Assembly (NCBI GenBank): GCA_900318015.1
Contig: ONJB01000037.1
Span: 1-51,240 of the forward strand
Direction: 5' to 3'
Origin: an uncultured Bacteroidales bacterium
GTDB taxonomy: Bacteria > Bacteroidota > Bacteroidia > Bacteroidales > UBA932
DNA: 51,240 nt
In this document: piece after piece, positions 11,429-25,478 of the stretch
How the letters are laid out: each line of letters opens with the position of its first letter
How positions within the stretch are numbered: the stretch's first letter is position 1
Position numbers and translations under genes: made by a program
Notes under the pieces: model-generated
The model's input: only the letters and a program-made list of their open reading frames with translations
Database searches by the model: none
Told to the model about the DNA's origin: nothing

Positions 11429-11447
11429 GGTTGAGCCGCTTTCTATG

Positions 11448-11507
11448 CAAAGATATAAACATTTGGACATATGCGAAAAAGGTTTTCCCTCCGGATTGCT
11501 ACCTTTG
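11448..11507. promoter_or_regulatory. divergent promoter region
   Basis: Minus-strand TATCTTTG at 11448-11455 serves the DUF5009 gene; plus-strand TACCTTTG at 11500-11507 serves the carboxylesterase gene. Confidence 0.65.
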
Positions 11508-11530
11508 CGGCAGACAAAACACTTTTCCGT

Positions 11531-13172
11531 ATGAAACTCTACAGATTCCTTCTCCCCGCGCTGCTCGTGGCGTCCTGCTGCGGTGGCAACAAGGCCGCCC
11601 AGGAAGACGGGCAGCGCCTGTTCGTCGGTGACGACTACGCCGTTACCCAGACCCAGTACGGCAAGGTCCAGGGTTACATCCTGGACGGCGTGTACACCTA
11701 TCTCGGCATCCCGTACGGCGCCCCTACCGGCGGCGAGAACCGCTTCATGCCCCCGCAGAAGCCCGAATCCTGGGAAGGAATCCGCCCCGCGATGTTCTAC
11801 GGCAACGACGCGCCCCAGAACATGGCCGACAAGTGGAAGAACAACTCCAGCACCTTCACAGACCACTGGAATTATTACGACGTGAGTGAAGACTGCCTGA
11901 ACCTGAACGTGTGGACCCCGGCCCCGGACGGCAAGAAGCGCCCGGTCCTGGTGTGGATGCACGGCGGCGGCTTCTCCGCCGGCAACAGCATCGAGCAGGA
12001 CGGCTACCACGGCGCGAACCTCGCCGAACCTCGCGCGTGCGGGGGACATCGTGTTCGTGAGCGTGAACCATCGGCTCAATGCCTTCGGTTTCTCCGACCT
12101 CTCCGCCGCCGGCCCTGCCTTCAAGAACTCCGGCAACGTGGGTGTCATGGACCTCGTCGCGTCCCTGCAGTGGGTCCATGACAACATCGCGAACTTCGGC
12201 GGCGACCCCGGTAACGTGACCATTATGGGCCAGTCCGGCGGCGGCGCGAAGGTGTGCGACGTGATCTCCATGCCTTCCGCGAAAGGCCTTGTCCATAAGG
12301 GTGTTGCGCTGAGCGGCAATGCCACCTCCGCCACGGATCCCGCTTCTTCCATGGCCATCGGCGCGGCCATCCTCAAGACCGTGAAGGGCGATGTGAGGAA
12401 GCTCCAGCAGATGCCTTGGGAAGAGTACTATGAACTGGCCCACAAGGTCGCGGCCGAACTCGGTGGCGGCGGAATGGGCGGCTTCTCCCCGGTTGCCGAC
12501 GGCGAGGTCCTTCCCGCCGACGGCTTCTTCAAGGACGACGTGGCCAAGAACGTTCCCCTGATGCTCTGCACCACCTCTTCCGAGTTCGCCCTGAGCAAGG
12601 AGAACGTCGAACTTGAGAACATCGATTTCGCAGGCGCCGTGGCCATGGTCCGCGACCAGTTCGGCCAGGCCAACGCCGAGGACATCCTCAAGGCCTACCA
12701 GGCCGCCTTCCCGGCCAAGAAGCCCATCGAGCTGGTGAACCTCACCGTGGCCCAGCGCAAGAACGTCCTCGCCACGGCTGATGCCAAATATGCGCAGGGC
12801 GCCCCGGTCTATCTCGCCTGGTTCGACTACAACGCGCCGCTCTTCGGCGGCCGCATCCGCGCCTTCCATTGCTCCGACATCAGCTACTGGTTCAAGAACA
12901 CCGACCTCATGGTCACCCACACCGGCGGCGGCGCCGAGCCCCGCGGCGTCTCCGACCAGATGTCGGCCGCCCTCCTCGCCTTCATGCGCACCGGCAACCC
13001 GAACTGCCCTGAAATCCCGCAGTGGCCCGCCTATACGCCCGAGGACGCTCCGACCATGATCTTTGACGTCAAGAGTGAAGTCAAGAACGCCCCCGACCGC
13101 GCCGCCCTGGAGCTGATGTCCGACTTCAATCCCTGGCGCATGGCCCGTCCCGCCCCGGCGGCCTCGAAATAA
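11531..13172 (+). pseudogene. type B carboxylesterase lipoprotein, frameshifted by a 10-bp duplication
   Basis: Carboxylesterase/para-nitrobenzyl esterase family. A lipoprotein signal (LLVASCC) is followed by YTYLGIPYGAPTGGENRF, EDCLNLNVWTP and WMHGGGFSAGNS in one frame, up to about 12024. From about 12035 the next frame continues: DIVFVSVNHRLNAFGF, then the nucleophile elbow GQSGGG and AFHCSDISYWF with the likely catalytic His. At the break, cgaacctcgc occurs twice in tandem (12015-12024 and 12025-12034). Removing one copy restores GANLARAGDIVFVSVN, exactly the family pattern, giving about 543 codons. As written the product is truncated after a short out-of-frame tail. Either reversible slippage, recent inactivation or assembly error. 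Confidence 0.88.
12015..12034. repeat. 10-bp tandem duplication causing frameshift
   Basis: Two perfect copies of cgaacctcgc side by side inside the carboxylesterase gene. Deleting either copy restores one open frame with conserved residues across the junction. Confidence 0.9.
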
Positions 13173-13376: not shown

Positions 13377-14654
13377 ATGGCCAGCTACAAGAAAATCAAG
13401 AAGATCGAGGACGAGTCGGCCAAAGTCCGCGTCGTCGAACGGCTTTTGGAACTGCGTAAACAGCTGAGCGCCCAGGTCCCGGAGAAGACGGCGACGCAGA
13501 CGCTGCTGCTCGCGACCTGGAACATCCGTGAGTTCGGGGACAACCGGCTCCCGGAGAGTTCGTACTACATTGCGGAGATTATCGACCACTTCGACATCGT
13601 CGTGATCCAGGAAGTGAACTCCAAGGAGATCGGCGGTCTGGAAAGCGTGTTGTCCATCCTGGGCGACAACTGGTCCTATGTCATGTCGGACGGGGTCGAG
13701 GGATCGGCCGGCGGCAACGAGGCCATGGCTTTTGTCTATAACACCAACAAGGTCAAGTTCACCGGTCTGGCCGGCGAACTCGTCCTTCCCGACAGCAAGC
13801 TCATGGGCGGCGTCCAGTTCGCCAGGACCCCGTTCATGGTGTCGTTCCGCGCCGGCTGGTTCGATTTCAAGCTTTGCACGGTCCACATCTATTACGGAAA
13901 GGATACCGTCAAGGGCATTTACCAGCGGCGGCTCAAGGAGATCCAGACGGTGTCGGATTTCCTGCTCAAGCGGCAGCAGTCGGATGATGTGTCCTACATC
14001 CTGCTGGGTGATTTCAACATCCCCGATACCAAGGGAGAGTATTTCAATGCGCTGGTCGAGGAACGGACCAAGACCAAGAGCGGCAAGGAGAAATCCAAGG
14101 AGAAGTTCTTCATCCCAGAGGAAATCCGCAGGCATCCTACCGACCTGGGCCACGTCAGCCATTATGACCAGATTGCCTTCAGCCTCAAGTTGGACCGCTC
14201 CATGGTCCTCTACGATGACGATAAGCAGAAGGCCGGCGCGTTCAACTTCACGGAAACCGTGTACAAGCCCGAGGATTGGGAAGTGTACCTGCCCTTCTAC
14301 CAGGAGTCTTATGACAAGATGATCGAGAACGAGAAGGCGTCTTTCGCGAAGAAATTGGCCAAATACGCCCAGGATAAGGAGCGGTTCGAGAAGAACTGGA
14401 AGAAATATGAGGAGGATTTGGCCGAGTATCAGAAACGGAACGAGGAGTATAAGAAAACCAAGGAAGGGACCAAGCCCAAGTCGCCCACCAAGCCGAAGGA
14501 ACCGTCCGAGCCGAATACGGCGCACACGCCCCCGGAGAAGCTCTTCACCGGCAGTTGGAGAACCTTCCAGATGTCGGACCATCTGCCCCTTTGGGTGGAG
14601 CTGAAGATCGATTTCAGCGACCAGTACCTGAAGAAGCAGAAGACGGCAGAATAG
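13377..14654 (+). CDS. endonuclease/exonuclease/phosphatase (EEP) family protein with coiled-coil insert
   Basis: Predicted metal-dependent phosphoesterase of the DNase I-like fold, 425 residues, no signal peptide. Catalytic blocks appear in order: TWNIREFG (Asn49), IQEV (Glu79), CTVHIYYG (His170), LLGDFNIPD (Asp212, Asn214), HYDQIAF (262-268) and MSDHLPLW (Asp401, His402). Unusually, about 80 residues (roughly 310-390), a charged, probably coiled-coil helix followed by a Lys/Pro-rich linker, lie between the last two blocks. Residues 1-40 are also helical and charged. Nucleic acid, phospholipid or nucleotide could be the substrate. It lies 126 bases upstream of the DUF2589 operon on the same strand, with a hairpin between, so functional linkage is inferred from position. 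Confidence 0.85.
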   Translation: MASYKKIKKIEDESAKVRVVERLLELRKQLSAQVPEKTATQTLLLATWNIREFGDNRLPESSYYIAEIIDHFDIVVIQEVNSKEIGGLESVLSILGDNWSYVMSDGVEGSAGGNEAMAFVYNTNKVKFTGLAGELVLPDSKLMGGVQFARTPFMVSFRAGWFDFKLCTVHIYYGKDTVKGIYQRRLKEIQTVSDFLLKRQQSDDVSYILLGDFNIPDTKGEYFNALVEERTKTKSGKEKSKEKFFIPEEIRRHPTDLGHVSHYDQIAFSLKLDRSMVLYDDDKQKAGAFNFTETVYKPEDWEVYLPFYQESYDKMIENEKASFAKKLAKYAQDKERFEKNWKKYEEDLAEYQKRNEEYKKTKEGTKPKSPTKPKEPSEPNTAHTPPEKLFTGSWRTFQMSDHLPLWVELKIDFSDQYLKKQKTAE

Positions 14655-14692
14655 AGGCTCCGCCAGGGAGGTTACAAATTATTATTTATTTT

Positions 14693-14722
14693 TTGGGGGA
14701 AAAGTTTTCTTTTCCCCTTTTT
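14693..14722 (+). terminator. possible terminator between EEP gene and DUF2589 operon
   Basis: GGGGGAAAAG and CTTTTCCCC form a stem with a short loop, followed by TTTTTATT. It may be leaky, because the next promoter begins at once. Confidence 0.6.
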
Positions 14723-14728
14723 ATTTAT

Positions 14729-14736
14729 TATATTTG
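14729..14736 (+). promoter_or_regulatory. -7 element of the DUF2589 operon
   Basis: TATATTTG in an AT-rich stretch, 44 bases before the ATG at 14781. The genes that follow to 23720 are spaced 7-48 bases apart; the only other candidate is a weak TAACTTTA at 15773-15780 before the second gene. Confidence 0.6.
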
Positions 14737-14780
14737 TCCCAAAGCGAAAAATTTTTAATAACCTCATAATCCTTTCAGCC

Positions 14781-15746
14781 ATGGTTAAGTACAGAGCAGC
14801 GTCCAATGCCGCCACCAGCGCATTGAAATCGATTCCCTTCGAGAACATCATCGGTGCACCCCTTGAGGCCTGCATCCGTGCCCAACAGTCAGCAGCGCAA
14901 AGCACTGTCGATTTCATCAATGCAGTCGGCCTTCAGGAGGTTCCGATCCTGGATGCGGAAGGCAACGAGACCGATAAAACCAAAGTCGAGGCCATCTATG
15001 TCTCCTTCCAGTTCATCCAGGGCGGGCGGATGGTCCAGATGAATGTCCCTCTGCTTTCGATCGTTCCGATTCCGTACATCGCCATCAACACGATCGACAT
15101 CAACTTCAAGGCGAACATCACCGCCGCGACCACGAACACCGCCGAGGATACCAGTTCTGAAGACAAGTCCAGTAAGTCTGATCATTCGTACTCGCATAAA
15201 TACAATGGCTGGCGCGTAAAGAACACCTCGTCTTCCAACATCTCGGCCCAGGTCTCCAGTAAGAAGGACTCCAAGGCGACGCAGGAATCCAAGTACAGCG
15301 TCGAGTATACGATCGACGTAGCCGTCCATGCTTCCCAAGACAGCATGCCTGCGGGTATGGCGAAGGTGCTGGAGATGATCGGCACGGCAATGGATCTGTG
15401 CAGCGCGGATGGCGAAATCTACGTGAATGGGACGCAGTTTGAGGCGGCGGCTGGTGGGAATGCCATGCTGGAAGTTTCCTACAAGACCCCGGCTGGCCTG
15501 ATTGACAACAAGAGTATCCAAGTGAATGAGTATAACCCTAATACTCAGGCTATTGGAGAGGTTGTGCAGGTCAAGAACAAAACCCGGGATGCCGTTTACT
15601 TCGAGCTGTCGGCAGGCGACGCGGGCAAGAGTTATATCGTGAAGTCGTCGGAGAATCCGGACAATCAAGAGATTATTACGGTTTCGGTTACGCAAGCGGT
15701 TGTCCCTGCAACTGGTGGTCAGCAGCCGGCTGAGGAAACCAAGTAA
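14781..15746 (+). CDS. DUF2589 protein, paralogue 1
   Basis: Protein of unknown function, 321 residues, no signal peptide or membrane span. The DUF2589 core (about 15-205) has the pattern shared in this operon: IPFENIIGAPLEACIRAQ, a variable strand, NVPLLSIVPIPYIAI then IDINFKANI, a Ser/Thr-rich linker, SSKKDSKATQESKYSVEYTI and SMPAGMAKVLEMIG. The C-terminal module (about 206-321) is beta-rich with no family I recognise and ends in a Gln/Pro/Glu tail. Codons in the last 220 bases look more AT-rich than in the core. First gene of the ten-gene operon; the next starts after 48 bases. Confidence 0.88.
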   Translation: MVKYRAASNAATSALKSIPFENIIGAPLEACIRAQQSAAQSTVDFINAVGLQEVPILDAEGNETDKTKVEAIYVSFQFIQGGRMVQMNVPLLSIVPIPYIAINTIDINFKANITAATTNTAEDTSSEDKSSKSDHSYSHKYNGWRVKNTSSSNISAQVSSKKDSKATQESKYSVEYTIDVAVHASQDSMPAGMAKVLEMIGTAMDLCSADGEIYVNGTQFEAAAGGNAMLEVSYKTPAGLIDNKSIQVNEYNPNTQAIGEVVQVKNKTRDAVYFELSAGDAGKSYIVKSSENPDNQEIITVSVTQAVVPATGGQQPAEETK

Positions 15747-15794
15747 TCCCGTCCTTTTCGAGACTCTCTACGTAACTTTAAATAATTACGTATC

Positions 15795-16691
15795 ATGCCA
15801 ATAGATAGCAGCGCCTCTACCGTTGCGACCAATGCGTTGCAGGCCATCCCCTTTGGGAGCATCATCGGCGGGCCTTTGAAGGCTTGTATCGATGCGCAGG
15901 CACAGGCAGCGCAGACGACCTGGGATTTCATCCGGCAGGTCGGTCTCAGCGAGGATGAGAACGGCAATGTGAAAGCCATCAACGTCCAGTTCGAGTATAT
16001 CAACGGCGGACGGCGGATGATGCTCAACATCCCGCTTCTCACGATTGTGCCGATCCCGTACATCGCTATCGACGAGATCGACATCAACTTCAAGGCTTCC
16101 ATCTCGGCTTCGTCCTCCCAGTCTTCGGAAAAGACCAAGTCCCTGGCCGTCGACTCCGGCGTCAAGGCCAAGGCGTCCGTCCGCGCGCTTTTCGTCAAAG
16201 CCAGTGCCGAAATGCACTGCAACGTATCGAGCAAGAAGGACTCGAAGGCCACCCAGGAGTCGAAGTACAGCGTGGAATACACGATGGACGTGCATGTCCA
16301 CGCCGGGCAGGACGGCATGCCCGCCGGTATGGCCAAGGTCCTGGAAATCCTGAACAGTTCCGTCGATACGGTCAATGCCAAGGGTGAGCTCTCCCTCAGT
16401 GACAATGTCCTCTATATAGGGAGTGGGGGTGCACAAACCATCGTCGCCTCCTTCCGTTCCGCTGACGGCGTCCTGGACGCCAAGCAGATCAAGGTCTACC
16501 TGGTGGAGGATGGGAAAGACGAAGAGTTGGTCGCGGATGCGAGTGTCAAGGATAATAAACTGCCCATCCGTCTCGCCGACTCCGATGAAAGCGTCGTCTG
16601 TGAGTTCACGTCCAGTAATGTGGGTAAGAACTATTACTTCAGGGCCGGTGACTGCAAGTCCCTGGTCAGCATCATGAGTAAATCCAGTTAA
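15795..16691 (+). CDS. DUF2589 protein, paralogue 2
   Basis: 298 residues, closest in look to paralogue 1. The core (about 10-192) contains IPFGSIIGGPLKACIDAQ, LNIPLLTIVPIPYIAIDEI, SSKKDSKATQESKYSVEYT and GMPAGMAKVLEIL. The segment between the strand pair and the SSKKDS motif (about 103-143) differs completely from paralogue 1. The C-terminal module (about 193-298) is a predicted small beta-sandwich (TIVASFRSADGVLDAKQIKV, VCEFTSSNVGKNYYF) reminiscent of Ig-like domains, without a named hit from memory. No export signal. The next gene starts 11 bases later. Confidence 0.88.
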   Translation: MPIDSSASTVATNALQAIPFGSIIGGPLKACIDAQAQAAQTTWDFIRQVGLSEDENGNVKAINVQFEYINGGRRMMLNIPLLTIVPIPYIAIDEIDINFKASISASSSQSSEKTKSLAVDSGVKAKASVRALFVKASAEMHCNVSSKKDSKATQESKYSVEYTMDVHVHAGQDGMPAGMAKVLEILNSSVDTVNAKGELSLSDNVLYIGSGGAQTIVASFRSADGVLDAKQIKVYLVEDGKDEELVADASVKDNKLPIRLADSDESVVCEFTSSNVGKNYYFRAGDCKSLVSIMSKSS

Positions 16692-16702
16692 CCGGCATCA
16701 TT

Positions 16703-17788
16703 ATGGCAGAAAAGAAATCTGTAGTTGAGGAATCAACAAAGCCGAAGGGCACGGAAGAAAAGCCGGTTGAGGAGAAGCCAAAGGCTACAAATGACGAAAG
16801 CGCAATCCCTACCAGTTATCAGGCATCGAGCGTTTTCGCTTCGTGGAGCAGTCTGCCCTTCGCTTCGCTGATCGGTGATCCGCTCCGCGCGGCCGTCGCC
16901 GCGCAGGCGGATGCCAACAAGCAAGTCCTGAAGTATATGCAGGACGTTGCTTTCGGCACGAAGGCGGAAGGAAGCGAAGAGCCCGCGAAGGCAGTCAAGT
17001 TCGATTTCGAGTTCATGAACAACGGGAAGCTCGCGAAGCTGAGCGTTCCCCTGATCACCCTCGTTCCAATCAACTTCCTGACCATCGACAAGGTCAAGGT
17101 CCAGTTCAAGGCGGCCATCAATGCCTCCAGCAATTCCACCTCGGTCACCCAGACCATCGAAAACGAGATCAACGCGACCAAGAAGAAAGTGGACCAGGAG
17201 AAGGCAGCCCAGAAAAAGGCGGCCGGCAGCGAAGGTGGTGGCTCCCAACAAGCTGGTAGTGGCTCCCAACAATCTGGAAACACCGAGGATGATAGCATCC
17301 TTGGCAAGATCAAGGCCGGTGTCCAGAAACTGATTCCGACCATCTCCAAGATCTCCGGCGGGGAATCCGAGAAGAGTGCCGCCCCTCAGGGCGACAACAC
17401 CTCCTATTCCAGCAAGAAAGACTCCAAATCCACCCGCGACTCCAAGTACAGCGTGGAGACGACGATAGACTTCGAAGTATCGGCCGTTCCGAGCGACATG
17501 CCCGGCGGACTTTCCAAGATGCTGGAGGTGCTGAACGGCGCCATTTCCGTCATCAATCCCGCGGGAGAGCTTTTCATCACCGAAAGCGAAGCCACCAAGG
17601 GCTCGAAGATCTACATCACCTACAAGAACGGGGAAGGAATCTTTGCTCCTGCCGATATCAAGATCTCACCGGAAGAGGGCGTCAAAACCACGACGATGGG
17701 AGACGGTATCCTGGCCACTTTCGAGAAAACCGAGAAGTACACCGTTACCGCCGGGAAGCAGACCGGTTCGATTGAAATCAAAGACTAA
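16703..17788 (+). CDS. DUF2589 protein, paralogue 3 (with low-complexity insert)
   Basis: 361 residues. It starts with about 40 charged, probably disordered residues rich in Lys/Glu/Pro. The core follows: LPFASLIGDPLRAAVAAQ, LSVPLITLVPINFLTIDKV, then after a long insert SSKKDSKSTRDSKYSVETTI and DMPGGLSKMLEVL. The insert (about 145-232) has a Lys/Ala helix and two 7-residue repeats GGSQQAG/SGSQQSG-like, encoded by 21-bp direct repeats (17234-17254, 17255-17275). A short C-terminal beta domain ends SIEIKD. The most divergent of the five full cores. 12 bases to the next gene. Confidence 0.85.
   Translation: MAEKKSVVEESTKPKGTEEKPVEEKPKATNDESAIPTSYQASSVFASWSSLPFASLIGDPLRAAVAAQADANKQVLKYMQDVAFGTKAEGSEEPAKAVKFDFEFMNNGKLAKLSVPLITLVPINFLTIDKVKVQFKAAINASSNSTSVTQTIENEINATKKKVDQEKAAQKKAAGSEGGGSQQAGSGSQQSGNTEDDSILGKIKAGVQKLIPTISKISGGESEKSAAPQGDNTSYSSKKDSKSTRDSKYSVETTIDFEVSAVPSDMPGGLSKMLEVLNGAISVINPAGELFITESEATKGSKIYITYKNGEGIFAPADIKISPEEGVKTTTMGDGILATFEKTEKYTVTAGKQTGSIEIKD
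17234..17275 (+). repeat. 21-bp in-frame tandem repeat
   Basis: Two adjacent 21-base units (17234-17254 and 17255-17275) differ at two positions and encode a Gly/Ser/Gln heptad inside the third DUF2589 paralogue. Copy-number change would stay in frame. Confidence 0.8.
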
Positions 17789-17800
17789 AGCCGTTCGTAT

Positions 17801-18571
17801 ATGACCAATATCCGACGTATCGTACGTTCCCTCCTGAGGGATGTCATCCAGGCCCAGCACGACGCCAATCTCTATTCCCAGCAGCTCAGCGAGGAATACT
17901 CCTCCGAGGGCGCTTCCGCCAATTTCAAGATTCCGGCGGCGCAGATCGGCGAGCTGGACATCGAGGTGAAGTACGCCATCGCTTCCACCCAGCCGGAGGA
18001 CACCGTGAGGACCGAGGTCAACGCTCGGGAGGAGAAGAAGTTCATCGGCAAGCTGTCCGAGAAACTGTCCGGGCTCATCCTGTCCAGGATCTCGGCGGAG
18101 GTCAAGCGCTCGAAGGTGCCTTACCAGGAGAATGGATTCGGCTATATCGACGACCTTCCGAAGCACCCCCTGATGAACAGTTTCGTCACCGAGTCCATCG
18201 GCAATGCCCTTTCCGAGAACAGCGTCAACATGTATCTGGACGGGTCTTTCGATTGCGACTACATCGCCAAGAGGGTTCTGAGGGTCGCCGAGAACGTGGT
18301 CCTCGGGCACAATGACATCCGGAATCTGTTCGCCCTGCCTGGCGGGGATGTCCTCAAGAAGACGCTCGTGGACAAACTCGACGACAACATCATCGAGAAT
18401 GTCCGCAAGGTCGTCAATGAGGTGAGCATGGACAGTTTCTTCCGCAAGCGTACCGCCAAGCATTCCATCCCCGTCATCGTGGATTCGGAAGCCCTGGCGA
18501 AGATGCCCCCGGAGTCGATCCAGACCCTTCGCCTGAAGGTGGGCCCGCAGGAACTGAAGAATGATCGGTAG
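17801..18571 (+). CDS. unknown protein, possible divergent DUF2589-like member
   Basis: 256 residues, no recognised family, no signal peptide. The N-terminal layout copies the DUF2589 core in reduced form: a helix LLRDVIQAQHDANLYSQQL comparable to the PLxACIxAQ helix, then IPAAQIGELDIEVKYAI (44-60), comparable to the PLLxIVPIPYxxIDxIDINF strand pair. The remainder is mainly helical with RILRVAEN-like and DKLDDNIIENVRKVVNEV segments and lacks the SSKKDS and MPAG motifs. It sits between the third DUF2589 paralogue (12 bases) and the next gene (23 bases). Relationship to DUF2589 is inference from pattern only. Confidence 0.72.
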   Translation: MTNIRRIVRSLLRDVIQAQHDANLYSQQLSEEYSSEGASANFKIPAAQIGELDIEVKYAIASTQPEDTVRTEVNAREEKKFIGKLSEKLSGLILSRISAEVKRSKVPYQENGFGYIDDLPKHPLMNSFVTESIGNALSENSVNMYLDGSFDCDYIAKRVLRVAENVVLGHNDIRNLFALPGGDVLKKTLVDKLDDNIIENVRKVVNEVSMDSFFRKRTAKHSIPVIVDSEALAKMPPESIQTLRLKVGPQELKNDR

Positions 18572-18594
18572 GCGCAACAGAAGGACCGGACAAG

Positions 18595-19026
18595 ATGAGT
18601 AACCCTGTCGAAATATCCGCACTCCTGAAGAATGTGCTCTCCTCCGCCATGGACGCTGAGTACCAGGGGTATCTGAGGTATCTGACCATCCTGGAGGAAC
18701 TGGAGGACGCCGGTTCCGTCGCCTTCTCGTTCGTCGACGAGAATGGGGAACGGTCGGCTATCGAGATTCCGATCGTGACCCTGGTCCCGCTGACGATGCT
18801 CCATATCGAGGAGGCGGTCTTCGATTTTGCCCTGAACATGAAGAACACCGATAATGACTCGGGTACCGAAGGGCAGGACCGTTCCGGCATGATGGTCACG
18901 GTGACTTCGAACAACACCGAAGATGAAACCACCAATCTCGTCGTCAAAGTCGAGATGGGGCAGTCGGACATTTCCTCCGGACTGATCGCGATGCTGCAGA
19001 AAAAGAACAATTCCCAGATCGAATAG
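18595..19026 (+). CDS. minimal DUF2589-like protein
   Basis: 143 residues, the smallest version of the core. The N-terminal helix LLKNVLSSAMDAEYQGYLRYL is followed by a strand pair (VAFSFVDENG, EIPIVTLVPLTMLHIEEAVFDF at 57-78) that aligns by eye with NVPLLSIVPIPYxxI of the full paralogues. A short Asn/Thr-rich linker and NLVVKVEMGQSDISSGLIAML (114-134), parallel to the core's last strand and MPAGMAKVLE helix, follow. No C-terminal add-on domain. It shares TLVPLTMLHI with the next gene, so these two form a sub-pair, probably by duplication. No signal peptide. Confidence 0.78.
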   Translation: MSNPVEISALLKNVLSSAMDAEYQGYLRYLTILEELEDAGSVAFSFVDENGERSAIEIPIVTLVPLTMLHIEEAVFDFALNMKNTDNDSGTEGQDRSGMMVTVTSNNTEDETTNLVVKVEMGQSDISSGLIAMLQKKNNSQIE

Positions 19027-19033
19027 AATCCGC

Positions 19034-20143
19034 ATGAATGCCATCAAGAATCTGACGGATGTTCTGAGCAACTCCCTGACCACGACCCTTGACGTCGAGT
19101 ACAAGGGGTACCTGCAGTATGTCCAGATCCTGAAGCGTCTGGAGAATATGCCTCCGCTGGAGTTCACCTACTACGACGACCTGAATGTCCCCAGGATGCT
19201 CAAGGTCCCGCCCATCACGCTGGTCCCGCTGACGATGCTGCACATCAAGCGCGCCTCCTTCGATTATTCGGTGGCGGTCGACAAGCTCGATTCCCTGGCC
19301 GAAACCGGCAAGTTGGAGCCCAGTCCCGCCCTGGACGAGGCGAAGAAGAACGCGAAGAACAGTTGCAACTACACCGAGTACACCCTTGATTCATCGGGCC
19401 AGTACAAAGTCAGCAGCAAGGGAAAAACGAGCCTCATCCAGGTGGGCGTCTTCAGCGAGAGCAGGATCAATGCGGCCAACAAGAACGGGAGGTCGGCTGC
19501 TGCCGCCCTCAAGAATGCCGCCGTGGAGAGGGTGGAAAAGCGTTTCAGAGGGATTACGGGGGTTGCCAAGAGGAATATCGCGGATATTGAGCTGAGAAGA
19601 ATGCTCTCTTCCTTGAAGAGCTATTACGGAAAGCCCTTTGTCCTGATGGACGGAACCTTCTATATCCCGAAGCTCATCCTGACCAAGGGCAGCGATGTTC
19701 AGAAGGCGTACACCTTTGATGGGATTTCGGCCAGTGTGAAAGGTTCCATTCCTTCCGGTTATCAGGTAATGTTCTGTCCGCTCACGAATCAGGTTTTCCG
19801 TCTTCTGAGCGATTCGCTCGCGAATTGTGTGCAATACAGTTTCTATCAGGACGGCAGCGCCCTTTCGGCAGCCGGGGAAAAACTGGAGCCCGTTCCCTCG
19901 ACGGGAGACCGGTCGCCGATCTTCTCGATCAGCTTCAACGACGGCTCCACTACCCTGCTCTGCCAAGTCAAGGTCTACTATGGGCCGGAGATCGAGACGA
20001 AGATCGTCAGCAAAGACATCAACATCAAGTCCGAGAAACGCACCAACTGTAATCTCAAAGTCACCGTGAAAATGGGGCAGGCCGGTATCTCCCAAGGGGT
20101 CATCAGCCTGTTGAATTCAAAGAACAAGACCAATTTAAAATAG
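19034..20143 (+). CDS. DUF2589-like protein with large internal insertion
   Basis: 369 residues. The ends match the preceding minimal protein: VLSNSLTTTLDVEYKGYLQYV and KVPPITLVPLTMLHIKRASFDY at the N-terminus, and KVTVKMGQAGISQGVISLL at the C-terminus (about 340-360). Between them roughly 230 residues are inserted: a Lys/Ala-rich stretch (AALKNAAVERVEKRFRG) and a beta-rich part (YYGKPFVLMDGTFYIPKLIL) without a recognised family. So the same fold core appears to carry its extra domain internally rather than at the C-terminus. Start 7 bases after the previous stop; zinc-ribbon gene starts 10 bases later. Confidence 0.78.
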   Translation: MNAIKNLTDVLSNSLTTTLDVEYKGYLQYVQILKRLENMPPLEFTYYDDLNVPRMLKVPPITLVPLTMLHIKRASFDYSVAVDKLDSLAETGKLEPSPALDEAKKNAKNSCNYTEYTLDSSGQYKVSSKGKTSLIQVGVFSESRINAANKNGRSAAAALKNAAVERVEKRFRGITGVAKRNIADIELRRMLSSLKSYYGKPFVLMDGTFYIPKLILTKGSDVQKAYTFDGISASVKGSIPSGYQVMFCPLTNQVFRLLSDSLANCVQYSFYQDGSALSAAGEKLEPVPSTGDRSPIFSISFNDGSTTLLCQVKVYYGPEIETKIVSKDINIKSEKRTNCNLKVTVKMGQAGISQGVISLLNSKNKTNLK

Positions 20144-20153
20144 ACAGAAGGGT

Positions 20154-20381
20154 ATGGCTGGAAATCAGCAGCAGAGGACACCGGGGCTGGAGTGCCCCAA
20201 ATGCCATCATTTCATTCCGACGACCATCGCCGAGCTTATCTCCGCGCAGTATCTGGAATGCCCGCATTGCAGGCTCCGCCTGACGATCAACAAGAAGGAA
20301 TCCAAGAAAGCGCTGGAGATCCTGAGCAACGTGAACGACGCCCAGAAGAATCTCGACAAAGCGAGCAAATTCAACCGTTAA
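20154..20381 (+). CDS. small zinc-ribbon protein
   Basis: 75 residues. Two CxxC knuckles, CPKC (14-17) and CPHC (36-39), separated by 18 residues, form a zinc ribbon. A basic helical tail (KKESKKALEILSNVNDAQKNL) follows. Such proteins bind nucleic acid or serve as small adaptors; which applies is not visible. It sits inside the DUF2589 operon, 10 bases after one member and 17 before the next, so a role in that system is likely from context. Confidence 0.82.
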   Translation: MAGNQQQRTPGLECPKCHHFIPTTIAELISAQYLECPHCRLRLTINKKESKKALEILSNVNDAQKNLDKASKFNR

Positions 20382-20398
20382 ACCAAAGTTAGGATCCC

Positions 20399-21505
20399 AT
20401 GTCTAGGGACTTGGACGTAAACAAACCCCTCCGATCGCTCAATTTCAGTCATCTGATCGGTTCGCCGCTCTTGGCCTGCATCGACGCCCAGGAGAAGGCC
20501 GCCCAATGCTCGCGGGAGTATATCGAAGAGGTGGGTCTGGAAGCCGATGATGACGGCAAGAAGGAAGCCATCATGGTTACCTTCTCATTCATCCAGGATG
20601 GGCAGGCCGTCGAGCTGAACGTTCCGCTCCTGTCCATCGTTCCCATCCCGTATTTCTCGATCGACCTGCTGGAAATCAATTTCCGGGCGAACGTCAAGAT
20701 CTCCGACGGTGAAATCACCGCCAGCTATGCCGCCGGCAGCGATTCCAAGAATGTCCAGCAGTCGCTGTACAATGTGGAAAGCTCCGTCGACGTCCATGTC
20801 AAGGCATCCCAGGACGACATGCCGGCGGGCCTGAGCAAGGTCCTCGGCGTTCTCGGGAACAGCATCCGCAGCTACAGCGAAAGCGTGGAGATCCCGGCCG
20901 AGGCCGACGACCAGCTGGTCCGCCTGCTGTGCGACGTGACCCATACGCCGGCCATCTTCACCCGGCTGGAGGACGGGACGGAAATCGTGGACAAGGTCCT
21001 GACCCGGATTCCGGAAGTGGATGCCATGCAGGTCCGTGAGCTGTATGTCAATTACGAGAAGTACCCTTTCCGGGACATCGGAATCCTGTCCATCCTGACC
21101 CACTTGACGAACCTGACCCTCACCTACGATTCTTCCAAGGTCCAGAAGCTCGACTTCAGCGCCGTCCCCAACCTGACGCGCCTCAAGCTGACCGACCTCA
21201 ATCTGGATCCCAAGGGGGGAATCATCTTCGACTTCGAGCCGCTGACGATGCTTCGCGTCCTCCGGCTCAAGAGAATCACCAACTACTCGGAGAACAAGCT
21301 TTCGCTGAACAAGATCCCGCTCATCGAGCGGGTAAACCTGACGGAGTGCAAAATCAAGGAACTGGACATCAACCAGTGCACCGCGGTCGAGATGGTCAGC
21401 CTCCGGAAGTCAGAGGTCGAAAAGCTTTTGGTCGACCAGGGATTCAGCGACTATTACCTGTATGGGGATTCCGTCGGGGAAGTGGTCAAGAACGAAACGA
21501 CGTAG
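20399..21505 (+). CDS. DUF2589 protein with leucine-rich-repeat-like C-terminus, paralogue 4
   Basis: 368 residues. Core (about 10-160): NFSHLIGSPLLACIDAQ, LNVPLLSIVPIPYFSIDLLEI, a short linker replacing SSKKDS (DSKNVQQSLYNVESSVDVHV), and DMPAGLSKVLGVLG. From about 205 onward the protein has irregular leucine-rich repeats: LTHLTNLTLTYDSSKVQKLDF, VPNLTRLKLTDLNL, LTMLRVLRLKRI, IPLIERVNLTECKIKELDI. LRR arcs usually bind protein partners, so this paralogue may be a binding or recognition subunit; that is inference. No signal peptide. 12 bases to the next gene. Confidence 0.86.
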   Translation: MSRDLDVNKPLRSLNFSHLIGSPLLACIDAQEKAAQCSREYIEEVGLEADDDGKKEAIMVTFSFIQDGQAVELNVPLLSIVPIPYFSIDLLEINFRANVKISDGEITASYAAGSDSKNVQQSLYNVESSVDVHVKASQDDMPAGLSKVLGVLGNSIRSYSESVEIPAEADDQLVRLLCDVTHTPAIFTRLEDGTEIVDKVLTRIPEVDAMQVRELYVNYEKYPFRDIGILSILTHLTNLTLTYDSSKVQKLDFSAVPNLTRLKLTDLNLDPKGGIIFDFEPLTMLRVLRLKRITNYSENKLSLNKIPLIERVNLTECKIKELDINQCTAVEMVSLRKSEVEKLLVDQGFSDYYLYGDSVGEVVKNETT

Positions 21506-21517
21506 CCGGACTGTGCC

Positions 21518-22858
21518 ATGGCAGAGGATAAATTGAATCTGATCAACAACACCTTCAACCAGGTGCCTTTCTCGCATCTGTTGGGGTCCCCGCTTCTCGC
21601 GTGTATCGATGCGCAGAAGCAAGCGGCGGATTCGTCGATCGACTATATCCATAGCGTCGGCTTCTACGAAGGCACCAACGAGGTCGTCAACGTGACGTTC
21701 AACTTCTACGTCGAAGGCCGTCCGGCGACGCTCGTCGTCCCCCTGCTGACCATCGTCCCCGTCCCGTTCTTCTCCGTGGACCTGCTCGACATCAAGTTCA
21801 ACGCGATGGTGGACCTGCACGAGGAGGAGGTCGAGGAATTCAAGGGCAATTACTCCAAGCCGGTCAGCGAGTCCAATTCGAACTATACCTACGACTACTT
21901 CTCCAACCTGAATGTCCACATGACCGCCTCGAAGGACCATGTTCCTTCCGGGTTGAGCACATTGATGGGCATGCTGGATTCCAGCATCCATGTCGTGGAG
22001 AGGAACGACGCTGCCGACGAGGTCGCCTCCCTCCGGCTGGACCGGAAAGAGGCGGACCTGACCCCGGGAGATGAGCTCCAGCTGATCACCAGTTCACAGG
22101 GGGAATTCATCTGGAGCCGCAACAATCCGGAGGTGATCGAACTGGACCAGACCGGTCATATCAAGGCTTTGAAGCTGGGCAAATCGCGGGTCTATGTCCG
22201 GACGGAAAGCGGAGAGAAGGTGGCCACATGCCTCGTGCGGGTGGTCGCTCCGGTGTTCTTGCCGGAACCCGAGCCGGAGCCCAAGCCCGAGCCTACGCCC
22301 GATCCGAAGCCTGATCCGAGACCGGCTCCCACCCCGCAGCCCATTTACACGTCCGGATCCGGCTCTGGATCAGGTTCATTCGGTTTTGGCCCGGGCGGAG
22401 CTGGCGAAACGTCCGGAGGCGTAGGCCCCCGCGTGGACGGCGGTGGCTCCAAGCTGGCGCCTATTCTTGAGGGTATGGTCGGCGGCTCCATCCTGGCTGA
22501 CCATTCCACCGAGAAAGCTATTGAGGCTGCCGTAGACAAAATCAATCAGGCCCAAGACAAGGTTTCAAGTACCGCCAAGGAGATTAAAGACAAAGCTTCA
22601 AGTATCTACGAGGAGGTCAAACAGAAGGCGACGGAAACCTCTAAGGGCGGGAAATCCTCTGTCGATAAAGAGATAGAAAAGATTTCAAAGGCCACCGAGG
22701 ATGCGGTTAAGAAAGTGAAGGAAGCGGCAGAGAAGTCTTCCTCTAGCAAGAAGACTACCACCACCAAGGTGAAGAAGTCCGCCACTGCGAAGGCGGCGAC
22801 CACTGCGAAGGCGAAAGCGGCTGCGACGACGAAGAAGCCTGCTTCAAAGAAGAAGTAA
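21518..22858 (+). CDS. DUF2589 protein with BIG2-like domain, Pro-rich stalk and basic tail, paralogue 5
   Basis: 446 residues, the longest paralogue. Core (about 10-160): VPFSHLLGSPLLACIDAQ, VVPLLTIVPVPFFSVDLLDI, HVPSGLSTLMGML. Residues about 170-245 look like a bacterial Ig-like (BIG2) domain (LTPGDELQLITSS, VIELDQTGHIKALKLGKSRV). A PEPxP/PDPKP repeat (249-275), a Gly/Ser-rich stretch (279-311) and amphipathic LEA-like helix repeats (about 332-405) follow. The last 37 residues are almost only Lys, Ala, Thr and Ser, like histone H1/AlgP tails, and could bind nucleic acid. Codons from about 22480 are more AT-rich. No export signal seen. 19 bases to the next gene. Confidence 0.87.
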   Translation: MAEDKLNLINNTFNQVPFSHLLGSPLLACIDAQKQAADSSIDYIHSVGFYEGTNEVVNVTFNFYVEGRPATLVVPLLTIVPVPFFSVDLLDIKFNAMVDLHEEEVEEFKGNYSKPVSESNSNYTYDYFSNLNVHMTASKDHVPSGLSTLMGMLDSSIHVVERNDAADEVASLRLDRKEADLTPGDELQLITSSQGEFIWSRNNPEVIELDQTGHIKALKLGKSRVYVRTESGEKVATCLVRVVAPVFLPEPEPEPKPEPTPDPKPDPRPAPTPQPIYTSGSGSGSGSFGFGPGGAGETSGGVGPRVDGGGSKLAPILEGMVGGSILADHSTEKAIEAAVDKINQAQDKVSSTAKEIKDKASSIYEEVKQKATETSKGGKSSVDKEIEKISKATEDAVKKVKEAAEKSSSSKKTTTTKVKKSATAKAATTAKAKAAATTKKPASKKK

Positions 22859-22877
22859 CCTCTTTTCACCCCAAGCG

Positions 22878-23720
22878 ATGAAAGCCCTCCATATCAACAG
22901 CACCCTTCCTTTCCAAGGTGCCGTGTTCTTCATTGAGGATCCGATCATCCTGTGTACGATCCTTTCCGCCCTCATGTGGCGGAAACTGAACGGGGAGATC
23001 AAACTCTATACGGACAAGGTCGGATACGATTATTACAAGCGGGTGGGCCTGCTGGGCCTGTATGACGGGGGAATCGACGTGGATACGCTGGAGCATCTTC
23101 CCTCGACGATCGACTACAGGATCTTCTGGGCCGGCGCCAAGCTTTTCGCCCTGCGGAAAGAGGGAACACCCATCGCGATGATCGACAACGACCTGGTTGT
23201 CTGGAAACCGATCGGGTCGGAGTTCGCCTCGCATCCCGTTACCGTTCTCCATACCGAGAATCTCGACGAGCAGGTGTATCCTTCCGGATATGTCCTCTTG
23301 ACGCGGAATGGGTACCAGTACAACCCCGCCTGGGACTGGAATGCGCGTCCGTGCAATACGGCCCTCGCCTGTTTCTCCGATCCGGCATTCCTGGAGTACT
23401 ATATCGGATGCGCCGTCGATTTCATGGAAGGAAACGCAGCGCCGGCCCACGAGAATGTGTCCCGGATGGTCTTTGCCGAGCAGCGGATCCTGGCCATGTG
23501 CGCTGCAGAAAAGGGGATCGCGGTGCATACCCTGCTGGGCGATCCTTTCGAGCGGCAGGACCTCGTCACCCATATCTGGGGCGCGAAGGTCTATGCCCGG
23601 AACGATCCGGACCAGAACCGGATCCTCTGCAATTTCCTGCTTCAGTGCATCTTGCGGCACTTCCCCGATTTCTCCTTCGGCACTCCGAAGCTCCAGTCCC
23701 TCCTGGAGACCTACAAGTAG
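22878..23720 (+). CDS. glycosyltransferase-like protein (DUF6734-like)
   Basis: 280 residues, no signal peptide. The N-terminal half reads like a GT-A fold: IKLYTDKVGYDYYKRVGLL, FWAGAKLFALRKEGTPIAMIDNDLVVWKP, where DND is a candidate metal/nucleotide-sugar DxD motif. The second half has PSGYVLLTRNGYQYNPAWDWN and CNTALACFSDPAFLEYYI, typical of family members I associate with DUF6734. Last gene of the operon before a strong terminator. It might glycosylate one of the Ser/Thr-rich subunits, which is inference from position. Activity is unproven. Confidence 0.7.
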   Translation: MKALHINSTLPFQGAVFFIEDPIILCTILSALMWRKLNGEIKLYTDKVGYDYYKRVGLLGLYDGGIDVDTLEHLPSTIDYRIFWAGAKLFALRKEGTPIAMIDNDLVVWKPIGSEFASHPVTVLHTENLDEQVYPSGYVLLTRNGYQYNPAWDWNARPCNTALACFSDPAFLEYYIGCAVDFMEGNAAPAHENVSRMVFAEQRILAMCAAEKGIAVHTLLGDPFERQDLVTHIWGAKVYARNDPDQNRILCNFLLQCILRHFPDFSFGTPKLQSLLETYK

Positions 23721-23751
23721 ATTTCCTTGACGGCCGTTGCTTACTGATCAA

Positions 23752-23792
23752 GACAAAAGTCCCCGGAAATGATCTTTCCGGGGACTTTTGTC
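23752..23792. terminator. bidirectional terminator between convergent genes
   Basis: 18-bp perfect stem (23752-23769 with 23775-23792) and 5-base loop, with A and T runs at the arm ends so it can act on both strands. It closes the DUF2589 operon and the fibronectin-repeat gene. Core AAGTCCCCGGAA is also used in the terminator at 27426-27459. Confidence 0.85.
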
Positions 23793-23807
23793 ATGCGGGG
23801 CGGAAGA

Positions 23808-25478
23808 CTACCTGCGCGGACGGGGCTTCGGAACCGGCAGCAGGGTCATCGTGGTCTCGCTCTTGTCCAGGCCCGGGTACTGGGTCATGTTGCCCGCCTC
23901 GTCATAGGCCATCACGTAGAAGGAGTAGTTCGTGCCCGGCTTCAGTTTCTTGAAGGTGAACTTGCAGATGTTCGTGTCCTCGCCGACGATGTGCCAGGGA
24001 TCCTGGTCGTTGTCCGTCTCGGTGAGACCGACGACGTAGCGGACGTCCTTGGACAGGGTGTTGTCGTCCTTCGCGCGCTCCCACTGGATGGAGATGGTGG
24101 TCTCGGTGACGTCCTTGATCTCGAGTTTCTTGCTGGCAGCCATGGGCGCCTTGTTGTCGGGCTCCAGGGTCTTGGCATACATGCAGCCGTTCAGGAACGG
24201 ATACTGGGTCATGTGGCCGGCCTCGTCGAAGGCTATCACATAGAAGGCGTACAGGGTGTCGTTCTTCAGCCCCTTGAAGGTGTGGGCGCAGATGTCCATC
24301 TGCTCACGGACGATGTGCCAGGGATCGTCGGGATTCTCGGCTTCGGTAAGACCCACGACATAGCGGATCTCCTTCTGGCGGGAGAGGTCGTCGGTGGCTT
24401 TCATCCACTGGATGGAGATGGTCTTGTTCGTGACTTCCATTACGTAGATATCCTTGCTCAGCACCGTCGGGGCGAGCGTGTCTTCCTTGTCCTCCAGGGT
24501 CTTGGCGGACATGCAGCCATTGGAAAGGGGATATTGAGTCATGTTACCCGCCTTGTCCTTGGCCAACACGTAGAAGCCGTACTTGGTGTCGGGCTTCAGG
24601 TGCGGGAAGGTGTGTTCGCAGATGTCCTTCCCTTCGCGGACCATGTGCCAGGGGTCATCGGCATTGTCGACCTCGGTCAGATAGATGGCATAGACGATAT
24701 CCTTCTGCTGGATGCGGTCGTCCGTGGCCTTCATCCACTTGATGGAGATGCTTTCGTCCGTGACCTTCACCACGTCGATCTTCTTGTTGAGGACGGTCGG
24801 GGCAACGGCATCCGGAGCCAGGGTCCTGGCGGACATGGAACCGTTGTAGAGTGGATACTGGGTCATGTTCCCCTCCTCGTCGAAAGCCATCACGTAGAAG
24901 GCGTAAAGGGTGTCGCCCTTCAGGTTCTTGAAGGTGAACTCGCAGAGGTCCTTCGCCTCGGCGGCGATGTGCCACGGGTCATCGGCATTGTCGGCCTCGG
25001 TAAGGCCCACGACGTAGCGGATTTCCTTGGCGAGGGTCAGGTCGTCGGTGGCTTTCTCCCACTGGATGGAAATGCTGTTCTCCGTGACTTTGACCACATC
25101 CAAGCTCTTGTTCAGCACGGTCGGAGCGTAGATGTCAGCCTTCGCCTCCAGGGTCTTGGCGGACATGCTGCCATCCGTGAGCGGATACTGGGTGCAGTTG
25201 CCGGCCTCGTCGAAAGCCAAAACATAGAAGGCATACACGGTGCTCGCCTTCAGTTTCGTGAAGGTGAATTCGCAGATACCCTTCATTTCAGCGGCGATGT
25301 GCCACGGGTCATCGGCATTGTCGGCCTCGGTGATGCCCACGACGTAACGGATGTCCTGGGCGGGTGTCTTGTCGTCCTTGGCGGGTTCCCACTGGATGGC
25401 GATGCTTCTGTCCGTGACTTTGACAATGTTCAATTTCTTGGACAGGACAAAAGGGGAGAGATTGTCTTGATTTTCCAT
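23808..25478 (-). CDS. protein with five fibronectin type III-like repeats
   Basis: 556 residues made almost only of five repeats of 108-110 residues (about 8-116, 117-226, 227-335, 336-443, 444-546). Each has a Trp in SIxIQW, YVVGLTEADN then DPWH (DPWH at 57, 167, 275, 385, 493), a LKxxTxYAFYV strand and DEAGNxTQYP. The strand order fits a fibronectin III/Ig-like sandwich. The N-terminus (MENQDNLSPF) carries no signal peptide and the end is Pro/Arg-rich, so it appears cytoplasmic or non-classically exported. The high repeat similarity suggests recent duplication. Promoter TATCTTTA on the minus strand (25521-25528). It converges on the DUF2589 operon; linkage is inferred. Confidence 0.85.
   Translation of the reverse strand: MENQDNLSPFVLSKKLNIVKVTDRSIAIQWEPAKDDKTPAQDIRYVVGITEADNADDPWHIAAEMKGICEFTFTKLKASTVYAFYVLAFDEAGNCTQYPLTDGSMSAKTLEAKADIYAPTVLNKSLDVVKVTENSISIQWEKATDDLTLAKEIRYVVGLTEADNADDPWHIAAEAKDLCEFTFKNLKGDTLYAFYVMAFDEEGNMTQYPLYNGSMSARTLAPDAVAPTVLNKKIDVVKVTDESISIKWMKATDDRIQQKDIVYAIYLTEVDNADDPWHMVREGKDICEHTFPHLKPDTKYGFYVLAKDKAGNMTQYPLSNGCMSAKTLEDKEDTLAPTVLSKDIYVMEVTNKTISIQWMKATDDLSRQKEIRYVVGLTEAENPDDPWHIVREQMDICAHTFKGLKNDTLYAFYVIAFDEAGHMTQYPFLNGCMYAKTLEPDNKAPMAASKKLEIKDVTETTISIQWERAKDDNTLSKDVRYVVGLTETDNDQDPWHIVGEDTNICKFTFKKLKPGTNYSFYVMAYDEAGNMTQYPGLDKSETTMTLLPVPKPRPRR

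Follow-up and report, generated by a model that had tools for sequence, protein, structure and literature searches.

A ten-gene DUF2589 operon in an uncultured Bacteroidales bacterium, apparently expanded from a smaller phage-related cassette

The DNA analysed here, referred to as the window, is a stretch of 51,240 nucleotides (contig ONJB01000037.1) from an uncultured Bacteroidales bacterium. At positions 14781–23720 it carries an operon of ten genes, A to J, six of which (A, B, C, E, H, and I) encode proteins that belong by score to DUF2589 (PF11655), a family described by Pfam as of unknown function, in agreement with the first-pass annotation of this DNA. The DUF2589 proteins are of a long and a short type, and the genes and flanking features are as follows.

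13377–14654, + strand: gene of the endonuclease/exonuclease/phosphatase (EEP) family, directly upstream of the operon (Pfam 3.6e-07)
14695–14718, + strand: hairpin with a T run, between the EEP gene and the operon (-14.8 kcal/mol)
14729–14736, + strand: TATATTTG, Bacteroidetes-type -7 promoter element, 44 bases 5' of gene A
14781–15746, + strand: gene A, long DUF2589 with a C-terminal domain (Pfam 1.5e-25)
15795–16691, + strand: gene B, long DUF2589, the C-terminal domain probably immunoglobulin (Ig)-like (Pfam 6.9e-28)
16703–17788, + strand: gene C, long DUF2589 with an N-terminal extension and a long loop (Pfam 5e-18)
17801–18571, + strand: gene D, possible DUF2589 remnant, member of the long-D-short-zinc (L-D-S-Z) cassette (family in 10 other loci)
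18595–19026, + strand: gene E, short DUF2589 (Pfam 3.4e-07; short-type model 81 bits)
19034–20143, + strand: gene F, short DUF2589 interrupted by ~250 residues (short-type model 70 bits)
20154–20381, + strand: gene G, zinc ribbon CPxC-x18-CPxC (phrog_4875, 7e-4)
20399–21505, + strand: gene H, long DUF2589 with a leucine-rich-repeat-like tail, by reading (Pfam 9.7e-24)
21518–22858, + strand: gene I, long DUF2589 with an Ig-type segment, a proline-rich linker, and a lysine/alanine-rich tail (Pfam 3.5e-14)
22878–23720, + strand: gene J, DUF6734, sole copy found in the genome (Pfam 6.6e-12)
23752–23792, no strand assigned: palindromic terminator with an 18-bp stem, between J and a convergent gene (-30.5 kcal/mol)

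All ten reading frames are open and lie on one strand, with successive gaps of 48, 11, 12, 23, 7, 10, 17, 12, and 19 bases, as the first-pass annotation had described. Gene B and a same-genus relative share 140 of 261 amino acids, with differences at the three codon positions of 104, 62, and 152 of 261, the third position varying most; this bias, the ten open frames, and the recurrence of the set elsewhere argue that the operon is real beyond chance. The strong terminator proposed after J is present, whilst the single clear promoter is evident only in part. The element at 14729 is the one match on the + strand within 14501–24000 to TAnnTTTG, which we take to be the Bacteroidetes-type -7 consensus, but no -33 TTG was found upstream of it, and of the 8 sites given by a sigma-70 scan (5.3 expected) none lies in the gap before gene A. 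No further DUF2589 matches were found in the genome of the window, the assembly of which is 92.5% complete.

Against the curated Pfam cut-off of 23 bits, the five full DUF2589 cores reported previously are recovered in A, B, C, H, and I (53.9–98.4 bits), with E also above the cut-off (31.2 bits, profile positions 60–153). Protein F falls under it at 18.5 bits and is 38% identical to E over 81 residues; the scores of E and F with the short-type model are not independent, the model having been built from an alignment containing both. The description of three reduced or divergent versions of the domain holds for E and F, whilst D gives no DUF2589 match in the Pfam scan and shows weak profile similarity, with hhalign giving a probability of 60% to the short type over 63 columns and of 4.9% to the long type. 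As the probability to the short type reaches 60% only, D was rejected as a true DUF2589 protein. Protein G is a zinc ribbon, as predicted, with four cysteines invariant across 13 aligned bacterial and viral proteins. The label “glycosyltransferase-like” for J was not confirmed by any search, with J matching DUF6734 instead, and reaching a best E of 0.1 against PDB sequence profiles. Protein I matches phrog_215, an Ig-domain structural protein (1.7e-07), and the tail of H has no leucine-rich-repeat match in the Pfam scan. The absence of signal peptides and membrane spans, asserted for all ten proteins, agrees with the N-termini of A to I, none of which is strongly hydrophobic in a crude hydropathy test (maximum 1.68, with two signal-bearing controls at 2.47 and 2.86), whilst it is not proven for J, the N-terminus of which reaches 2.39; over windows of 19 residues, C, I, and J pass 1.6.

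Profiles of the long and short types match with a probability of 98.7% (E 1.7e-16, 170 columns matched), indicating that the two types share one fold, a point on which the first-pass annotation had made its single-system reading partly depend. Models of B (predicted local distance difference test, pLDDT, 71.6) and of the H core suggest a long N-terminal helix, a beta domain, a short C-terminal helix, and a disordered loop. In Foldseek the B model matches only antibody domains, none of which were obtained with the H core alone; the matches of B presumably arise through its C-terminal part. The H core model, with a pLDDT of only 73.5, has no match in the PDB at E 0.001, and PDB sequence-profile searches for the long, short, and D families, and for the neighbour family c1 described below, found no relative. 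One viral relative of the H core is 30% identical to it.

DUF2589 loci occur in at least the Bacteroidota, Spirochaetota, Pseudomonadota, Bacillota, and Actinomycetota (by the loci that could be named). Open reading frames were called by a home-made procedure, with high-GC loci re-called on one strand, where some frames are spurious. An initial 87 loci held three contigs fetched twice (L043/L149, L048/L145, and L055/L146), which were removed before arriving at 69 bacterial loci non-redundant at 80%, and to these two genomes still contribute two pieces each (L142/L143 and L035/L036). At least one long and at least one short gene are present in 51 of the 69 loci, 32 of them in the order short then long, the commonest arrangement, with the two types not both present in 18, some of which lie at contig ends (e.g. 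L142). Two or three DUF2589 genes are found in 56 of the 69 loci, and a stand-alone ten-subunit machine was rejected as the general form on this ground.

Within the Bacteroidales the family is patchy, being present in 11 of 247 sampled genomes of the order and 11 of 398 of the taxonomic family, with the window's own genome included in both. The gene order of the window (three long genes, then D, two short genes, the zinc ribbon, a further two long genes, and J), which the first-pass annotation had suggested seeking in other Bacteroidales, is conserved as a set in one other genus, where the same operon (genome G247, locus L139) consists of four long, two short, zinc ribbon, and two long genes. 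The best identities to this locus are 56% for B, 52% for G, 48% for A, and only 23% for E, and counterparts of D and J were not found there. The smaller L-D-S-Z cassette is present in relatives (L141 and L144), and partly at contig ends (L142/L143 and L148). In a maximum-likelihood tree A, B, C, H, and I of the window, five long proteins of L139, and four B-like proteins of the taxonomic family form one clade (99/97), with A pairing with two L139 proteins at 97/98. The pairing of B and its counterpart in L139 reaches only 96/45; C, I, and L139_12167 sit on long branches, and the tree gives C, H, and I no firm position. Taken with the prevalence of loci holding two or three DUF2589 genes, the tree indicates that the ten-gene form is an expansion of the small cassette, grown by duplication in this lineage, and at least the split between A and B looks older than the separation of the two genera. 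The ten genes were observed correctly; their number reflects a local expansion, and what the set means is to be sought beyond the window.

DUF2589 genes are also present in phages. A scan of IMG/VR gave 407 stretches related to the long type, from which 80 loci were kept, with two DUF2589 genes in 75 and one in 5; a set of 19 viral loci non-redundant at 85% contains 17 with two DUF2589 genes and 9 with a zinc ribbon nearby, and all four cysteines of G are common to the viral ribbons. A tblastn search of INPHARED phage records with one bacterial query gave only one short unannotated record. In the phage locus L162, PHROGs identify a portal, head protease, and major head protein (1e-72) upstream of a cassette of long gene, zinc ribbon, and short gene, followed by a head-tail adaptor, tail sheath (3e-80), and tube. 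L155 has the same order from the scaffold and head genes onward, and in L186 the DUF2589 pair comes after a fragment of the major head protein. The placement of the L162 cassette between the major head protein and the neck/tail genes is reminiscent, in gene position only, of the structural cluster of T4-like phages, from which it differs in that neither of its DUF2589 proteins has a PHROG family at E 0.01.

An endolysin gene lies, by reading, within ~3 kb of the pair in at least 6 of 18 viral loci (L156, L163, L170, L181, L190, and L209), and endolysin PHROGs lead the tally of viral neighbour proteins among the best 25 of 126 families. This tally covers 150 of 167 neighbour proteins, 13 of L154 and 4 antisense of L156 having been dropped, and the bacterial-looking L164 was excluded from both the neighbour and tree sets. 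In the drawn tree the viral sequences fall into three or more separate clades set among the bacterial ones, so a transfer of DUF2589 genes between phages and their hosts is probable; a tree statistic placing the viral sequences in one clade, with 79 rows omitted, was not used. Relatives of J are present in three of the 80 viral loci with a DUF2589 pair (DUF6734 at L170 9897–10901, L171 9893–10897, and L227 15899–16564), two of which score equally.

The gene beside the cassette varies, and one clean exchange of this neighbour is evident within Bacteroides. Loci L083 and L078 share a stretch of 5,923 bases at 96.9% identity. It runs to base 10545, leaving out the last few codons of the long DUF2589 gene, and no match follows in the next 150 bases; the gene after the break belongs to the c1 family in L083 and is of EEP type in L078. 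L088 carries the EEP version like L078 (94.8% through it) and departs from L083 at the same base, and L085 carries the c1 version. Furthermore, a single genome of Bacteroides bouchesdurhonensis contains two similar cassettes (L078 and L081), one with each neighbour type. This exchange is the strongest sign that cassette and neighbour belong together.

Thirty neighbour proteins of bacterial cassettes were hand-picked for a Pfam scan, with 9 of the 30 having no match at E 0.05. Those at or over their cut-offs are Peptidase_M15_3, Exo_endo_phos, DUF261, and a response regulator; two deaminase families, Amidase_2, phage sheath, Peptidase_C58, PG_binding, Muramidase, and GH108; and GH25, WHH/colicin DNase, GH19, C58, and Muramidase, with one more Muramidase separately. 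A GIY-YIG match at L057 is under its cut-off, and L031 is “lipase-like” by reading only. EEP-type genes lie directly after the cassette at L078, L088, and L090. The commonest neighbour without an assigned family is c1, with 17 entries from no more than 14 different contigs. Two members were scanned without any Pfam match, and an alignment of nine shows an invariant Gly-Cys followed 15 residues later by a His. This resembles the Cys-His pattern of CNF/BLF1-like deamidases, but PDB profile and paper searches gave nothing and the assignment was set aside as a lead only. Under a fixed rule, taking the first gene of at least 120 residues within 500 bases downstream, 54 of the 69 loci yield a proximal gene, with the best 25 of 27 families including DUF261 in 5 genes, EEP in 2, and Muramidase, Phage_lysozyme, GH25, Amidase_2, SLT, GH19, C58, and sheath in one each. 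In a distal control of 43 genes, the best 25 of 54 families are mostly housekeeping or regulatory, with one EEP. In the crude hydropathy test 27 of 31 hand-picked cargo candidates lack a strongly hydrophobic N-terminus. Within the operon, J is a candidate for the cargo slot, and the upstream EEP gene is a possible but unproven cargo.

Several further families adjoin DUF2589 genes. In spirochaete loci including Treponema (L061, L064, L067, L069, L072, and L074) two or three DUF2589 genes are followed by a DUF261-type protein, with several of these loci also holding a shared family, c11. A family of ~90 residues, c2, adjoins DUF2589 in 26 loci, a count that includes redundant loci, often from Pseudomonadota (L037, L040, L094, L097, L102, L104, and L108 among them), and the one member scanned has no Pfam match. 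Genes of the cytidine-deaminase superfamily lie near DUF2589 at L061 (2407–3060) and L050 (10577–11068), and in Phocaeicola plebeius a phage-tail-sheath gene (L095, 9896–11979) lies directly 3' of DUF2589, with no tube or baseplate genes around it by reading.

The muramidase family PF11860 is present in 5 of 21 genomes with DUF2589 and 0 of 21 without (Fisher two-sided p ~0.05, by hand), the latter having been taken from the top of listings rather than drawn at random. The muramidase lies within the DUF2589 gene cluster in three of the five genomes (L140, L143, and L144) and on another contig in G272 and G059. In effector–immunity pairs, immunity proteins follow the pattern of a signal-bearing protein encoded after the effector. 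Signal-bearing proteins come after the muramidase at L140 and L144 and are, by analogy, candidate immunity proteins; L143 has a partial lipoprotein-like open reading frame. The regions in question (L140 5227–6773 and L144 4833–6146) encode a signal-bearing protein of ~155 residues and a membrane protein, which by reading have a C-terminal segment in common.

We propose, with a probability of roughly 0.4, that the operon is an expanded phage-related cassette, the long/short hetero-oligomer of which carries, packages, or translocates an exchangeable enzyme. The cassette would comprise a long and a short DUF2589 protein and the zinc ribbon, plus protein D in some Bacteroidales, with the long and short proteins most likely forming a hetero-oligomer, a reading that fits their frequent co-occurrence. 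The enzyme would be separately encoded and mostly without an export signal of its own; phages would use an endolysin, and bacteria either a wall hydrolase or an enzyme resembling a toxin. Tandem duplication in the window has given rise to long proteins whose tails are Ig-like, leucine-rich-like, or proline/lysine-rich, and such tails would suit the recognition of a target or the decoration of a particle. Of this picture, the cassette with its conservation, its presence in viral contigs, its expansion here, the variable neighbour, and one clean exchange are shown, whilst the complex, the binding of cargo, and delivery are inferred. A carrier or delivery role would best explain why wall-acting and intracellular enzymes, mostly signal-less, share one carrier, as well as the muramidase–immunity-like pattern and the distribution of muramidase genes. 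The first-pass annotation had proposed a hetero-oligomeric assembly, and this part fits the co-occurrence of the two types, whilst a single system of ten subunits does not fit loci holding two or three. Its shell, filament, or scaffold is not upheld in plain form, as the phage occurrence and the varying, partly toxin- or lysin-like neighbour point to cargo handling or delivery.

A bolder version would make long/short DUF2589 pairs and the zinc ribbon the centre of an undescribed machine for toxin delivery, derived from phages and found in several bacterial phyla with exchangeable cargo, and the window an elaborated form with target-recognition tails; this is rather doubtful. Were the proposal true, DUF2589, at present without a function, would become the marker of a machine common to phages and bacteria of at least five phyla, the gene beside it would offer a systematic route to new toxins and lysins, including the c1 family, and the function of DUF2589 would be directly testable via the pair and its cargo.

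Polymorphic toxin systems combine a shared trafficking part, an exchanged toxin, and an immunity gene. The DUF2589 loci may resemble these in the exchange of toxin-type or unrelated genes beside a conserved putative carrier (L083, L078, and L088) and in the putative immunity proteins after the muramidase, but differ in that, in the loci that were read, carrier and candidate cargo are encoded separately, with no known trafficking domain found. Across 5.39 million open-access full texts (preprints and supplements aside) DUF2589 is named only in PMC3949148, with PF11655 and DUF6734 not found, and none of the matches listed from open-access literature on new delivery systems names DUF2589. The passage concerned in PMC3949148 describes no short type, D, zinc ribbon, phage cassette, or neighbour genes; it reports adjacent DUF2589-related genes of Archaeoglobus fulgidus (AF0414–AF0417) that are jointly up-regulated on lactate, which resemble the present operon in their adjacency but are archaeal. 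A module that phages and bacteria have in common, and whose partners are exchangeable and in some cases resemble toxins or lysins, is apparently undescribed.

Several observations weigh against the carrier proposal. No known relative of the DUF2589 core fold was found, the proximity of endolysins in phages may be mere clustering of late genes, and two viral copies sit elsewhere, at L223 (in a replication region) and L154. Only 9 of the 54 proximal genes have a lytic or toxin-type Pfam match, plus the 5 DUF261 (25 of 27 families), with the remainder without family or unrelated, e.g. LemA, dTDP_sugar_isom, Jacalin, and Sel1; as the distal control covers the best 25 of its 54 families, no measured enrichment is claimed. 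Additionally, the sheath, GH25, SLT, and lipase-like candidates have hydrophobic N-termini (2.20–2.88), one muramidase N-terminus reaches 2.02, and no muramidase was found in the window's own genome at its 92.5% completeness.

Of the alternatives, that which survives best, though unlikely, is a lysis accessory or chaperone, in which DUF2589 complexes would restrain wall hydrolases inside the cytoplasm and set them free when the cell is programmed to lyse; bacteria would have retained this function from phages. Such a role would account for endolysins near the viral copies and wall hydrolases near the bacterial copies, and small, possibly holin-like proteins lie beside the pair at L181 and L209 (by reading); however, it leaves unexplained the deaminases, C58 proteases, colicin-type nuclease, EEP, and c1 neighbours, and the head/tail position in L162 and L155. 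Next, and also unlikely, is a particle or shell scaffold, with DUF2589 proteins building a virion-like or cytoplasmic assembly bearing decorating tails, and the neighbouring enzymes being incidental. Whilst the number of paralogues, the Ig-like and repeat-like tails, and the phage head/tail gene position are consistent with a scaffold, neither fold nor sequence ties the DUF2589 proteins to those of capsids, tubes, sheaths, or shells (with models of moderate quality), and neighbour genes are exchanged at the cassette boundary.

Intracellular defence or abortive infection, in which paralogues would sense infection, the variable gene would be a suicide effector, and phage copies would be counter-measures, we consider quite improbable. 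The varying effectors, the patchy distribution in order and family, and the phage-encoded copies would suit such a system, but ten proteins (eight from the window, one DUF2589 relative, and one c1) have no match in PADLOC-DB 2.0.0 at E 0.01, on which ground a catalogued anti-phage defence system was rejected, and signal-bearing proteins follow the muramidase; wall hydrolases would be unusual suicide effectors.

Cargo types similar to the DUF2589 neighbours are known from type VI secretion systems (T6SS) and extracellular contractile injection systems (eCIS), and these share with the cassette a kinship to phages and the one sheath neighbour at L095, but the operon holds no such structural gene (Pfam scan). 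The T6SS sheath TssC/VipB (PF05943) is absent from the window's own genome, with an E. coli control positive, and the eCIS tail sheath PF17482 is missing both here and in 18 of 21 genomes with DUF2589; in the 42-genome comparison that was also used for the muramidase, it is present in 3 of 21 with DUF2589 vs 0 of 21 without (Fisher two-sided p ~0.23, by hand). Even with these three genomes and L095 in its favour, a role as cargo of a T6SS or eCIS whose genes lie in another part of the genome is very improbable, and dependence on a contractile system is not supported given the missing sheaths.

Beside the operon, a carboxylesterase gene upstream (window 11300–13172, + strand) is split over two frames with a break near 12030, one frame encoding a lipoprotein-like N-terminal portion and the other the C-terminal portion, and is either a pseudogene or an assembly error. 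The convergent gene beyond the terminator (window 23811–25478, - strand) encodes a protein with five fibronectin type III repeats and, by reading, no visible signal peptide.

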